Origin: Bryobacterales bacterium
GTDB taxonomy: Bacteria > Acidobacteriota > Terriglobia > Bryobacterales > Bryobacteraceae
DNA length: 64,000 bases
Direction: 5' to 3'
Assembly (NCBI GenBank): GCA_003167495.1
Contig: PMSX01000050.1
Location: 24,718-88,717 of the forward strand
In this document: in pieces, positions 770 through 55,345 of the stretch
How positions within the stretch are numbered: the first letter of the stretch is position 1
Layout: every line of letters begins with the position of its first letter
The notes under the pieces: generated by a model
The model's input: the letters and a program-made list of their open reading frames with translations, nothing else
The model's database searches: none
Told to the model about the DNA's origin: nothing
Position numbers and translations under genes: made by a program

Positions 770-1186
770 AGACCATTGAGTCGGTCGCGGCCACATTCCC
801 AGTTTGCGCCATCCCGCATCGATAGATCCTGCCGGCTCAGCGTTTGCCTGACCGTTGAGTGGATCGTCCGCCACTCGGACAAAGGCGCCGGACGACCAGA
901 AAACAGCCCAACGGTCCCCGAATACGGCATTACGAAAACATCGCCCCGCTGTAGTCACAATGTGTTTAGAAATCTACTTGTCCGGGTAACGCGCAACCTG
1001 CCAATTTAAATCTCGACGCTGGCCGCACGTCCTCGTTTGGGAGATCATGGTATCCGACGGGCGCCTCATGTCACGCAACGCCGTTTCCGGCCAACCTCAA
1101 CAATCAAACTGGATTCCACACGCCGTGGCCTTTGTGAGAACTAATCCTTACCAGAGGCCTAATCCGATCTCAATGAGCGCCAAAAG

Positions 1187-1762
1187 TCAAAAGCTGCCCA
1201 AGAGAAAATCTCTTGCACTCGCTAGCACTTTCTCTCGCATCGCGGCTTCTGGCAGCATGCGAGCAATTTCAATTACCCCGATCATCGTTGAAAAGATCGA
1301 AAAGAAGGCGCGCTCTCTGTCTGCGGCTCGTCGGCCGGGCATAAAGGGAAGCATTCGATCTTTGTAGTTCACAAGCTCGGCGAAGATCTGGCCCCGCATC
1401 CTCTTGCCGACTCGCGCCAGTTCGGGCGCAAGTGCCGCCAGCGGGCAGCCGTGCTCAGCGTGATCGCAGTATTCCAAGCTTAGATAGACCTTTACAATCG
1501 CCTTCCAAGCTGTCTCAGGAGGCGACTGTTCGGCCGCGTGAACCAGGTTGTCGGCGATCTCTCGGAAAGCCTCGCGGAGTGACTCCAGGAGCAGCTCATC
1601 CTTGTTCTTGAAGTGTTTGTAAAAGCCTCCGTGCGTCAAACCAGTGTCACGCATAACCGCTGCAACCGCTGCGCCGTTCAGACCTTCGGTGCGTACCCGT
1701 CGCGAGGCGTCTTTCACAATCTTCTGATGGACTTCGGCCTTGTGTTCGGCTCGGTAACGCAT
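1187..1762 (-). CDS. TetR/AcrR family transcriptional regulator
   Basis: N-terminal HTH 'VRTEGLNGAAVAAVMRDTGLTHGGFYKHFKNKDELL'; 191 aa; divergent from the downstream membrane gene. Confidence 0.9.
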   Translation of the reverse strand: MRYRAEHKAEVHQKIVKDASRRVRTEGLNGAAVAAVMRDTGLTHGGFYKHFKNKDELLLESLREAFREIADNLVHAAEQSPPETAWKAIVKVYLSLEYCDHAEHGCPLAALAPELARVGKRMRGQIFAELVNYKDRMLPFMPGRRAADRERAFFSIFSTMIGVIEIARMLPEAAMREKVLASARDFLLGSF

Positions 1763-1770
1763 GGCTCATT

Positions 1771-1793
1771 ATAGGATGTTCGAAATCATCCCA
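1771..1793. promoter_or_regulatory. putative TetR operator O1
   Basis: ATAGGATG-N7-TCATCCCA, just upstream of the tetR start; same layout as O2. Confidence 0.55.
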
Positions 1794-1829
1794 CGGTGCA
1801 GCGCGGCAGCGCCTGAAAAAATCGAAACC

Positions 1830-1853
1830 ATAGGATGATCTTTGTCATCCTAT
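1830..1853. promoter_or_regulatory. putative TetR operator O2
   Basis: Perfect 9-bp inverted repeat ATAGGATGA-tctttg-TCATCCTAT in the divergent intergenic region. Confidence 0.65.
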
Positions 1854-1917
1854 ACACGAAAGGAGAATTCCAAGTGTCTCACCCGATTCTTGATCCTCCA
1901 ATCGCAAAAGAGGTCGC

Positions 1918-2430
1918 ATGTCTCAAGAAACTCTCTTCCAAATCCATCTCGTTTTAGGCTATGTTGCCTGGCTGCTCTGTTTTGGGGCATACATCCTGCC
2001 AAGGTTAAGGTCGATGGGCCGGGTCGAAGCGCACCGCGCCATCGCGACTCTGCACAGCTTTCGCTTCTTCGGGCTCGTCTTTATTCTTCCTGGCGTCGTC
2101 GGCCCCAATCTGCCGCCTGGCTTCGCCACTTTCGCGGCCTACGGCGATTTTGCAACCGGGTTGCTCGCCATGTTGGCGCTTCTCACAGTACGGGTACGTA
2201 CGCTTTTCTGGCCGTGCGTCGTTGCCTTCAATTTCGTAGGCGTGGCCGACATAATCCTCGACTATTACCACGCCGTCCAAACCGGCCTTCCTGCGATAGC
2301 CGGCCATTTGGCCGCCACATACGCCATCCCGGTCATCTACGTGCCTTTGCTGATGATCACGCACGTCGTCGCCTTCTATTGGTTGGTGCGGCCACCGGCT
2401 CGGCAAACAGCTGAGCATCATAAACCCTGA
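1918..2430 (+). CDS. small integral membrane protein of unknown function
   Basis: 170 aa with several hydrophobic segments; preceded by purine-rich RBS sequence; divergent from tetR. Confidence 0.7.
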   Translation: MSQETLFQIHLVLGYVAWLLCFGAYILPRLRSMGRVEAHRAIATLHSFRFFGLVFILPGVVGPNLPPGFATFAAYGDFATGLLAMLALLTVRVRTLFWPCVVAFNFVGVADIILDYYHAVQTGLPAIAGHLAATYAIPVIYVPLLMITHVVAFYWLVRPPARQTAEHHKP

Positions 2431-2518
2431 AGGCAGGTTTGGGGGAATGCTGGAAGAAATCCGTGATTGGTCGTATCAAGGCCGGTCTAAACTGGGTTTA
2501 GGCCAGAGGGGGGACGCG

Positions 2519-2908
2519 ATGAAGCGAACATGGACGATCATCGGGGTAGCCGACGTCCCCGGCAGCTTCAAATGGTATCAAGCGCTGTTCGGTCAGCCCG
2601 CCAGCCTTCCCGCCCATCACGACTTCGGGCAAATTCTCGATTCAGACGGAACCGTCTTGCTCTGCCTCCACGAGTGGGGCGCCCACGGGCATCCCTCCTT
2701 GATCAGCCCCAATCACGGGACACGCGGCAACGGCCTCCTGTTGTTCTTCCGGGTCGATGATTTCGACCTGGCGCTTCAAAGGGCGCGCTCTCTCGTCACT
2801 CGACTCGAAGAGGAGCCCCACGTGAATGCGAACACTCAAACCAAGGAGTTCTCGCTACGAGATCTGGACGGATATTACGTTACGATCAGTGCGCTCTCCG
2901 CAGCCTAA
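2519..2908 (+). CDS. VOC/glyoxalase-like protein
   Basis: Start chosen at MKRTWTIIGVADVPGSFKWYQALFGQPA; typical VOC pattern. Confidence 0.75.
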   Translation: MKRTWTIIGVADVPGSFKWYQALFGQPASLPAHHDFGQILDSDGTVLLCLHEWGAHGHPSLISPNHGTRGNGLLLFFRVDDFDLALQRARSLVTRLEEEPHVNANTQTKEFSLRDLDGYYVTISALSAA

Positions 2909-3427: not shown

Positions 3428-4888
3428 TCACCGGCTCACTTTCAACACCCACGACGGTTGCGAAAGCAACACTTCTGGGAGATCGGGGAGCTCTATCGAG
3501 ACACTGCCGTTCGAGGCCTTGAACTTGAGAGGAGTCGCATCCCCGAGCAGTGCTACGGCTTTGACGCCTCCGACGTCCTTCAGCGTAAAGTGGCGGCCGG
3601 GCCAGCGCGGCAGAATAGCGTAGAGATCGCTCCCTTTGGTGGTGAAAAAAGCTTCGATGCGCGCTTTGCCGGGGGCCGGATCGGCTACCAGGGAATTGAC
3701 GTCGTATGCGGTGGCGTATTCAGCGTTGTAGTCGATTTTGGGAACTTCGCCGGAGCTCCACTGGCGAGTGGCTTTCCAGGGTTTCGTACCGTAGATGGCT
3801 TCGCCGTTGATTTTGAGCCAATCTCCCATTTGAATGAGACGCTCCTCCATGATGACGGGGATGGTGCCGTCGGCAGCGGGTCCGATATCCAGCAGGAGAT
3901 TGCCGCCGCGACTGACAAGATCCGAGAGCATGACGACCAGTTCGTGCCCCGTGTGATAGTGCTCGAGTCTTTCGGCGCGGTTGTAGCCGTAGCTGAAGCC
4001 CATGCCGCGGCTTTCCTCCCATGGGTGATCCATGCCGCTCATGCCGGGTGTATATTCAGTAGTCCAATAGCCGCCATGTTTGTGCCGCGTCTCTTTGCCC
4101 CAGCGGTCATTGACCACGACTTCATCCTTTACGGGCGACTCATTGAAAAGCCAGGCCAGCATTTCAGGACTGTGCCATTCGGCGGAAGACATCTCCCATT
4201 CACCGTCGCTGAAAATGATAGCTGGCTTGTAGTGAGTCACAAGGTCTTTAAACTGCGGAATCATGTGCTCCTTGACGTAGCGCGGCTTGTCCGAGAGCCA
4301 GAGTGGGTTGTACCACTCATACAGCGAATAGTAAACTCCCATGCGCAAGCCTTTGCGCCGGACGGCATCGGAGAGATCGCCTAATAGATCGCGTTTCGGC
4401 CCCGTCTCGACGGCGTTCCAGGGCCGTCCCCAAGTGGCGGAGGCTTCTTTGCTGGGCCAAAGAGCAAAGCCTTCGTGATGCTTGGAAGTAAGGGCGACGT
4501 ATTTAGCGCCCGAGCGCGCGAAGACATCGGCCCAGTGATCGGGGTCAAATAGCTCCGCGCGGAATTGCGGCGCGAAGTCCTGATACGGAAAGTCGGCGCC
4601 GTATTGTTTCTGATGGTAAGCCCAAGTGCCGGTTTGGATCGCGCTCGCTTTCGGATCGTTTTTGCCCTCGGTAAGAGCGTTCCAATACCATTCGGCGTAG
4701 GCAAGCTTGCCGGGGATGACGGGAGCATAAGAAGGCACTGAATAAACGCCCCAGTGAATGAAGATCCCGAATTTGGCGTCGGTGAACCAGGCGGGAGTAG
4801 CGCGCTGGTCGAGCGAGTCCCAGGCGGGCTGATAGGTCTGGGCGTTGAGGGCGGTTGCGAACAGACAGCAGAGGAGCAGGGGTTTCAT
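3428..4888 (-). CDS. alpha-L-fucosidase, GH29-type, secreted
   Basis: Signal peptide, then 'WFTDAKFGIFIHWGVYSVPSYAP', 'YVALTSKHHEGFALWPS' and 'GNLLLDIGPAADGTIP', typical of GH29. Confidence 0.93.
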   Translation of the reverse strand: MKPLLLCCLFATALNAQTYQPAWDSLDQRATPAWFTDAKFGIFIHWGVYSVPSYAPVIPGKLAYAEWYWNALTEGKNDPKASAIQTGTWAYHQKQYGADFPYQDFAPQFRAELFDPDHWADVFARSGAKYVALTSKHHEGFALWPSKEASATWGRPWNAVETGPKRDLLGDLSDAVRRKGLRMGVYYSLYEWYNPLWLSDKPRYVKEHMIPQFKDLVTHYKPAIIFSDGEWEMSSAEWHSPEMLAWLFNESPVKDEVVVNDRWGKETRHKHGGYWTTEYTPGMSGMDHPWEESRGMGFSYGYNRAERLEHYHTGHELVVMLSDLVSRGGNLLLDIGPAADGTIPVIMEERLIQMGDWLKINGEAIYGTKPWKATRQWSSGEVPKIDYNAEYATAYDVNSLVADPAPGKARIEAFFTTKGSDLYAILPRWPGRHFTLKDVGGVKAVALLGDATPLKFKASNGSVSIELPDLPEVLLSQPSWVLKVSR

Positions 4889-4951
4889 AAGAGATCCTGC
4901 CCATTAAATCAAATGGCGCAGAGCTGAGCCGTGACCAATGCGCTCACCCGC

Positions 4952-4997
4952 CTGTAGGGCAGGATGGCATCCTGCGCGCCGATTGGCAATCGGCGCT
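4952..4997. repeat. twin-hairpin dispersed element, copy A
   Basis: Hairpins GCAGGAT-GGC-ATCCTGC (4959-4975) and GCCGATT-GGC-AATCGGC (4978-4994); second copy at 55264-55309 in inverse orientation. Confidence 0.75.
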
Positions 4998-5022
4998 AAG
5001 TCTCGTGTCGCACACCCAGGCC

Positions 5023-5475
5023 TCAGTGAACCTTGGCAACCTTCTGAAGGGCGACGGCATTCATGCAGTACCGGAGACCGCTAGGCTTGGGGCCATCCGG
5101 GAAGACGTGGCCAAGGTGGGCGCCGCAGGTGTTGCAGACGGTTTCAACGCGCGTCATGCCATAGGTGTCGTCGCGGTGATACGCAATGGCGTTGGGTTTC
5201 ACAGGCTGAGTGAAGGAGGGCCAGCCGGTGCCGGAATCGAATTTTTCAGAGGCGTCGAAGAGCACGGTATCGCAGCAGAGGCAAGAGTAAATGCCGGGTT
5301 CAAAGAGATTGCACATCTCTGAACTGAAGGCGCGTTCGGTGCCTGCCTGGCGAGTCACCATATATTGCTCGGGAGTTAGTTGTTTTCGCCATTCGGCCTC
5401 CGTCTTGACCACCTTGCGATCTGGCGCCGGGGTACCGTCTTTGGCGTAGGTTAGAACTTGTTTCCAATCCAACAT
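5023..5475 (-). CDS. msrB: peptide-methionine (R)-S-oxide reductase
   Basis: 'TGTERAFSSEMCNLFEPGIYSCLCCDTVLFDASEKFDSGTGWPSFTQP' and 'GAHLGHVFPDGPKPSGLRYCMNAVAL' are MsrB signatures; start at MLDWKQVLTYAKDG. Confidence 0.92.
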   Translation of the reverse strand: MLDWKQVLTYAKDGTPAPDRKVVKTEAEWRKQLTPEQYMVTRQAGTERAFSSEMCNLFEPGIYSCLCCDTVLFDASEKFDSGTGWPSFTQPVKPNAIAYHRDDTYGMTRVETVCNTCGAHLGHVFPDGPKPSGLRYCMNAVALQKVAKVH

Positions 5476-5807
5476 TTCGATGAGTCTCCTTTCTAAGCTT
5501 AAGCCACACTCAAACACCATTTTCGGAGGAAAGTTCTGCAAGTCGTTCACAGAACTCAAAAAATATTTTCTCGCTTCACCCATCTGAAAACTAAGCCTCT
5601 ACCCATTTCGCCCGCTAAATTCTCCATCCCGCCCAACCGGGCCGCGCGCTACTTTCAAACCAGCTTCACGGCGGTCGTGTCTGTCGGCGTCTTTCGTTTA
5701 CCACGGATCGCGCCCCTTCCGCCCAACCGGGGCAACCCGGCTCAGATCTTTGCAAATCGAATATTTCACGTTCACTTCCCGAGCCAGGTGGGAATCAACC
5801 TGAGCCG

Positions 5808-38411: not shown

Positions 38412-38610
38412 TGAAAGTGATGCAGTACCCCAAAGCGGGGCGGCGTTGCCGACTCCTTTACAGTCGCGGTTCGGCTAGAAGTTGGGCGGTAAAAGAGATG
38501 GTCGAGACGTATTAGCAAGGCAGTGCCGAATTAGGTCGCGTACGCTCGGTTTCGGAGTTCGTCGTGTGTCAGGAAATGTTGAAACTCCAGAATGCACTAC
38601 AATGTAGTGC

Positions 38611-55214: not shown

Positions 55215-55263
55215 ACGGCTCCCGGCGGGCGCGACGCGGCCAGAGGTTGTACGACTAGCTAAA

Positions 55264-55309
55264 AGCGCAGATTGCCAATCGGCGTGCAGAATGCCATTCT
55301 GCCCTACAG
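55264..55309. repeat. twin-hairpin dispersed element, copy B (inverse orientation to copy A)
   Basis: GCAGATT-GCC-AATCGGC (55267-55283) and GCAGAAT-GCC-ATTCTGC (55286-55302). Confidence 0.75.
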
Positions 55310-55345
55310 ATGGCCAATATCCAGCGGTTACCTAAAGCTTTGTAC

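Follow-up and report, generated by a model that had tools for sequence, protein, structure and literature searches.

GTAG-tagged REPs with their RAYTs (REPtrons; Nunvar 2010, PMC2817692; Di Nocera 2013, PMC3733652; Quentin 2018, PMC6006769) are short palindromes with GTAG or GTGG at the foot, dispersed in many copies, with a class 2 Y1 transposase between inverted copies and with stems that change in pairs. These features are common to the Bryobacterales repeats described here, which differ in having a second hairpin that abuts the first and matches it in the loop. The model used to search for REPs in PMC6006769 describes a short hairpin, or a long one with a bulge, and the RAYT hosts accepted in PMC2817692 are gammaproteobacteria only, with no Acidobacteriota among them. 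Reading of the loop has been shown for only a few RAYTs. In one study, certain loop positions, among them a loop G, were critical for two RAYTs (PMC8266576).

The repeats are very probably single units of a Bryobacterales REP family that would have been spread by RAYTs and whose stems would be kept by recognition, the two copies in the window (the whole 64-kb stretch of DNA that was analysed) being immobile remnants. Each unit consists of a single GTAG or GTGG head, a hairpin, and a second hairpin 0-2 nt later. The head stands 0-2 nt before a short GC-rich palindrome, as is characteristic of GTAG-tagged REPs, and on the sequence features tested the elements of the unit agree with those of GTAG-tagged, RAYT-associated REPs.

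Both copies were found with the sequences, positions and strands that a sequence-only reading of the window had given them, copy A at 4952-4997 on the forward strand and copy B at 55264-55309 on the reverse strand. Copy A, which was recovered by pattern search, folding, covariance model and a strict scanner, carries a GTAG head at 4954-4957, a guide-like tetranucleotide that is GTAG or GTGG in the aligned copies, followed in folding and alignment by hairpin 1 at 4959-4975 (7 bp, loop GGC) and hairpin 2 at 4976-4996 (9 bp, loop GGC), all on the forward strand. Two 7-bp stems with 3-nt loops had been proposed; the two hairpins, the 7 bp of stem 1 and the GGC loops were borne out, but the second stem of copy A is longer, at 9 bp, with the arms GCGCCGATT/AATCGGCGC. 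Copy B (pattern search, folding and covariance model) has its GTAG head at 55304-55307, hairpin 1 at 55286-55302 (7 bp, loop GGC) and hairpin 2 at 55265-55285, all on the reverse strand; its proposed fold holds for hairpin 1, which is intact, but not for stem 2, which is interrupted by one uncompensated C-T mismatch. As single-stranded DNA, copy A forms two abutting hairpins at -17.5 kcal/mol (z -4.4, 0/200 shuffles as stable) and the fold of copy B is less stable (-9.9, z -2.1, 5/200 shuffles as stable). The strict scanner demands GTAG or GTGG, then, no more than 2 nt away, a perfect stem of 6 bp or longer, and after another 0-2 nt a second such stem; its sole match on both strands of the window was copy A, and 40 first-order Markov shuffles gave 0 matches. 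Copies A and B are not chance.

Both window copies were checked for position and are extragenic. Copy A lies outside any CDS, as had been read, in the intergenic space at 4889-5022 between msrB (SelR, 5023-5583, reverse strand) and the alpha-L-fucosidase gene (3428-4888, reverse strand), and copy B in that at 55215-55345, flanked by a dioxygenase-like gene and a BON-domain gene, which are convergent. In a genome of the same genus (G007), the genes on either side of both sites are collinear with the window, and 44 nt (A site) and 32 nt (B site) stand between the matches, versus 132 and 143 in the window; no twin unit was found in the G007 gap at either site. The sequences there are too diverged for the two alignments to give exact unit ends, and the comparison shows presence and absence between species, not direction or exact ends. 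A stretch of at least 170 bp over the msrB start and its upstream region (window 5532-5700) is repeated at several other places in the window's genome with 73-86% identity.

The window's genome is a 9.39-Mb draft in 396 contigs, estimated to be 7.6% contaminated. A genome-wide search for further copies, one of the checks that had been proposed, was performed with a pattern in which inner stem positions were left as N; it returned 19 rows, one being the other-strand reading of another row, and thus 18 distinct places, and the backward pattern had 0 matches in the same genome. A covariance model, also proposed, found at least 32 copies in this genome at E<=1e-6 (150 candidates scored), at least 94 in a genome of the same genus (G016), at least 36 in one of the same family (G017), 9 in G014 and 4 in G003; the 35 remaining genomes of the search gave no hit at this threshold. 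With one exact pattern, the GTDB genome collection gave 10 contigs, all from Bryobacterales MAGs, and a phylum-wide search of a 119-genome sample at a strict cut-off found no twin units outside the order. Inverted pairs about a short spacer, heads outermost, occur at several places in G016, G017 and several named MAG contigs, and such dimers often carry different stems in their two arms. Single units prevail in the window's genome, where they are nearly all that is found, and the window copies themselves are single. In the copies counted, the family-A loop begins with G; inversion of the loop from GGC to GCC was considered, and the counts are small.

Two side observations concern the surroundings of individual copies. 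Immediately upstream of the head, GGCC(A/G)TTT or a near match stands in 10 of 25 own-genome copies versus about 1% in the window, an example being window 55308-55320 on the reverse strand; since copies of another stem type (L099, L101) have this 5′ flank too, it could be a target preference or part of a mosaic. One twin unit (L064:1501-1549) lies in frame and without a stop inside a reading frame of 522 codons (1111-2679, reverse strand), in a histidine-rich stretch to which it adds roughly 15 residues.

Stem 1 does differ between the copies by the paired change that had been noticed, from GCAGGAT/ATCCTGC in copy A to GCAGAAT/ATTCTGC in copy B. This difference is not established as one compensatory event, because copies A and B may come from different subfamilies. 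The alignment of 18 copies has standard pairs in 95.8% of pair cells versus 92.5% when shuffled, and both sides are changed in 13 cells versus a shuffled mean of 3.9 (0/500). The two-sided changes fall in pairs 14/26, 16/24 and 29/50; within stem 1, pair 14/26 is A-T, G-C, T-A or G-T and pair 16/24 is G-C or A-T. The covariation of stem 1 is not circular, because the search pattern left these last two pairs free, and when the structure is slid by 1-3 columns just 30-43% of cells are paired. The expectation that stem changes in other copies would be compensatory was upheld by the additional paired changes, but not by stem 2 of copy B or by a few unpaired cells of the alignment. The description as a dispersed element with preserved stems stands, given the further copies and further paired stem changes in the genome; symmetric changes of this kind could also come from hairpin-templated repair.

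To look for a genome-encoded Y1 transposase had likewise been suggested. RAYTs between inverted units do exist in genomes of the same genus and family, but none flanked by family-A units was found among the nine Y1_Tnp genes of the window's own draft genome; such a RAYT could lie in its unassembled part. Units of the window's stem type stand inverted around the Y1 genes L148 (G016), L138 (G017) and L156 (G014), and the Y1 genes beside or between twin units with window-like stems include these three as well as L258 and L267. Other stem types of the twin unit border Y1 genes of the same type across the order, heads outermost, and the units that flank each RAYT gene carry stems of their own. One own-genome gene, L025, has an inverted pair of twin units around it whose stem type is not that of the window; the unit on one side is GTGGC-GCAGACACTCGTGTCTGC-C-GCGCCGAGACTCGTCTCGGCGC. 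At the protein level, NH(V/M/L)H, FWQ and YIExNP are conserved in the alignment (A3; one row with NF), and the family bears the HuH, WQ and Y--xNP type motifs of class 2 TnpA-Y1, the classes being those defined in PMC6006769. Among solved structures, the closest relative of the family is E. coli TnpA-REP (4er8, E 7.5e-10), and the top family is NCBIfam NF047646 (REP-associated tyrosine transposase), with 79.4 bits for L148 and 70.9 for L025 against a curated cut-off of 80.

Several other Y1 genes call for separate mention. The own-genome L023 and L024 were considered as cognate RAYTs, a family-A remnant adjoining L024, and were rejected: their own flanks are single-hairpin REPs and the proteins fall in the other clade of the tree. 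Arrays of twin units stand beside the RAYTs L272 and L273, and at L282 the heads of the twin units face the RAYT gene. The own-genome Y1 genes L020, L021 (a variant), L022 and L027 are flanked by inverted repeats with GGGGWSAS-like motifs (GGGGACAGCCCGCACGTTTCC, GGGGTCAGACACCATTA), which is the TIRYT type (PMC3733652).

In a maximum-likelihood tree of 76 RAYT-type proteins, the twin label is clustered. Of the 53 RAYTs in one part of the tree, 33 have twin units at their flanks; of the 23 that form a supported clade (99/95), none does. Nine proteins of this clade have single-hairpin REPs, and for the remaining 14 no REP was detected; it includes L023 and L024 together with the proteins from other families of the phylum. 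The labels were assigned by the scanner, and twin units are undercounted because it demands nearly perfect stems. Outside the clade of 23, three proteins were scored as single, and one of these, L274, has a mismatched second hairpin. A single clean origin of twin units is not established, since the tree needs 13 changes of the label.

The loops of the two hairpins were compared in copy A and in 30 units that stand beside RAYTs, 31 in all, each loop being taken with two closing pairs. Within a unit, the mean common string is 4.42 versus 2.83 with partners shuffled (0/5000), a count that overstates the evidence because related RAYTs are in the set; the result is unchanged by dereplication. At the five outermost bases of their stems, by contrast, the two hairpins are no more alike than shuffled partners (2.1 versus 2.2). 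Matching loop pairs recur with quite different loops, such as TGTCA, ACTCGT, CCCCTGG and GCTTCAGC, and about a third of units show little sharing. The correlation between the identity of RAYTs and the similarity of their loops is weak (r 0.20 and 0.23), and the sharing is partly inherited among related RAYTs. Shared loops next to unshared outer stems suggest that one protein may read both hairpins of a unit.

On this reading, the cognate RAYT would bind the single-stranded form of the unit, recognize its head and both of its hairpin loops, and cut and rejoin beside it, so that copies of the unit would spread. The stems would stay paired while their sequence drifts, through RAYT recognition and perhaps also hairpin-templated repair. 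That the window copies are immobile remnants is the most likely reading: nearly every unit in the genome is single, no RAYT flanked by matching units was detected there, and stem 2 of copy B is broken; PMC3116915 interprets single units as REPIN remnants. A bolder version, in which one RAYT lineage would read the twin hairpin with two protomers, one per hairpin, via the shared loop, so that a single unit would be movable without a REPIN partner, is tentative and in our judgement unlikely. If it were true, a single unit would already hold what IS200/IS605 splits between its left and right ends.

There is a small but real chance that these are ordinary single-hairpin REPs, consisting of hairpin 1, and that the second palindrome is irrelevant to recognition by the transposase. 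The GTRG head precedes hairpin 1 alone, and it is hairpin 1 that is intact and hairpin 2 that is damaged in copy B; related RAYTs, including L023 and L024 of the same genome, are flanked by single-hairpin REPs, and there is a precedent in two pseudomonads, whose degenerate GTAG units lie next to unrelated stem-loops (PMC3733652). A passive hairpin 2 is, however, difficult to reconcile with the agreement of the loops, but not of the outer stems, within a unit, and both hairpins are retained beside RAYTs with many different stems.

Alternatively, the double hairpin might act in RNA, stopping transcription or protecting mRNA 3′ ends at gene ends, with selection keeping the stems paired: copies A and B are intergenic, B between convergent genes, and hairpin clusters have been proposed as terminators (PMC8355165). 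This is improbable, as copy A is without a T-run and without a terminator-like site (scan of 4850-5100), Rfam gives no family at gathering score and one sub-threshold match at chance level, units are inverted around RAYT genes, and one copy lies in frame within the 522-codon reading frame; an RNA role might nonetheless accompany the units as a secondary effect in the host. Even less credence is given to the units being ends or parts of a larger mobile element, for example the MITE-like element with ends GGGTCAGAAAATGTAGAAACTCC. Such an element does sometimes adjoin hairpin 2, but its ends are absent from most copies, there is no constant sequence downstream of the copies, the 5′ side shares only a partial GGCCATTT, and it is the twin units themselves, heads outermost, that border RAYT genes. 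The module GGAGTTTCTACATTTTCTGACCC beside some copies proved to be the end of a separate MITE-like element. As for that element in its own right, GGGTCAGAAAATGTAGAAACTCC ends occur at 12 places in the genome, including a degenerate one at window 38566-38588 (reverse strand) and others at L045, L049, L091 and L096; about 200 bp lie between two inverted ends in L091, and several ends abut a stem-2-like hairpin.

The Bryobacterales REP family can finally be set against the systems described elsewhere. REPINs (Bertels and Rainey 2011, PMC3116915) have their counterpart in the inverted unit pairs, heads outermost, of G016, G017 and several named MAGs, but a REPIN is made of two REPs, whereas a Bryobacterales doublet has four hairpins, and the window's genome holds nearly all single units. 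The class 3 TnpA-Y1 structures of PMC6006769 are likewise found in this phylum, at high copy number (about 600 copies in Solibacter usitatus) and beside Y1 genes; they have a CnGA foot and a Y....Q type motif, in contrast to the GTRG foot and Y..xNP type motif of the Bryobacterales units, in which no CnGA foot is found, the foot being GTAG or GTGG. The GGGGWSAS motif of TIRYTs is absent from twin units. CGTC-tagged repeats carry CGTC at one end and have no linked transposase, whereas twin units have a GTRG head and linked Y1 genes. Two-hairpin REPs were not found described in the open-licence literature, and an earlier description outside it is possible. The many natural pairs of RAYT and twin hairpin, with loops that match within a unit and differ between units, would be ready substrates for work on loop recognition and protein stoichiometry. 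They also suggest that searches expecting one hairpin per REP describe such elements in part only. The closest precedent comes from pseudomonads, where around P. putida ORF 607 and P. fluorescens ORF 4255 a GTAG unit joined to a second stem-loop likewise flanks a Y1 gene and exists in many copies (PMC3733652). Compared by description, the GTAG-1 units there are degenerate and the stem-loop attached to them is unrelated, whereas the Bryobacterales units have an intact head, an intact hairpin 1 and matching loops; what distinguishes them is the second abutting hairpin with its shared loop, a feature associated with one part of the RAYT tree.
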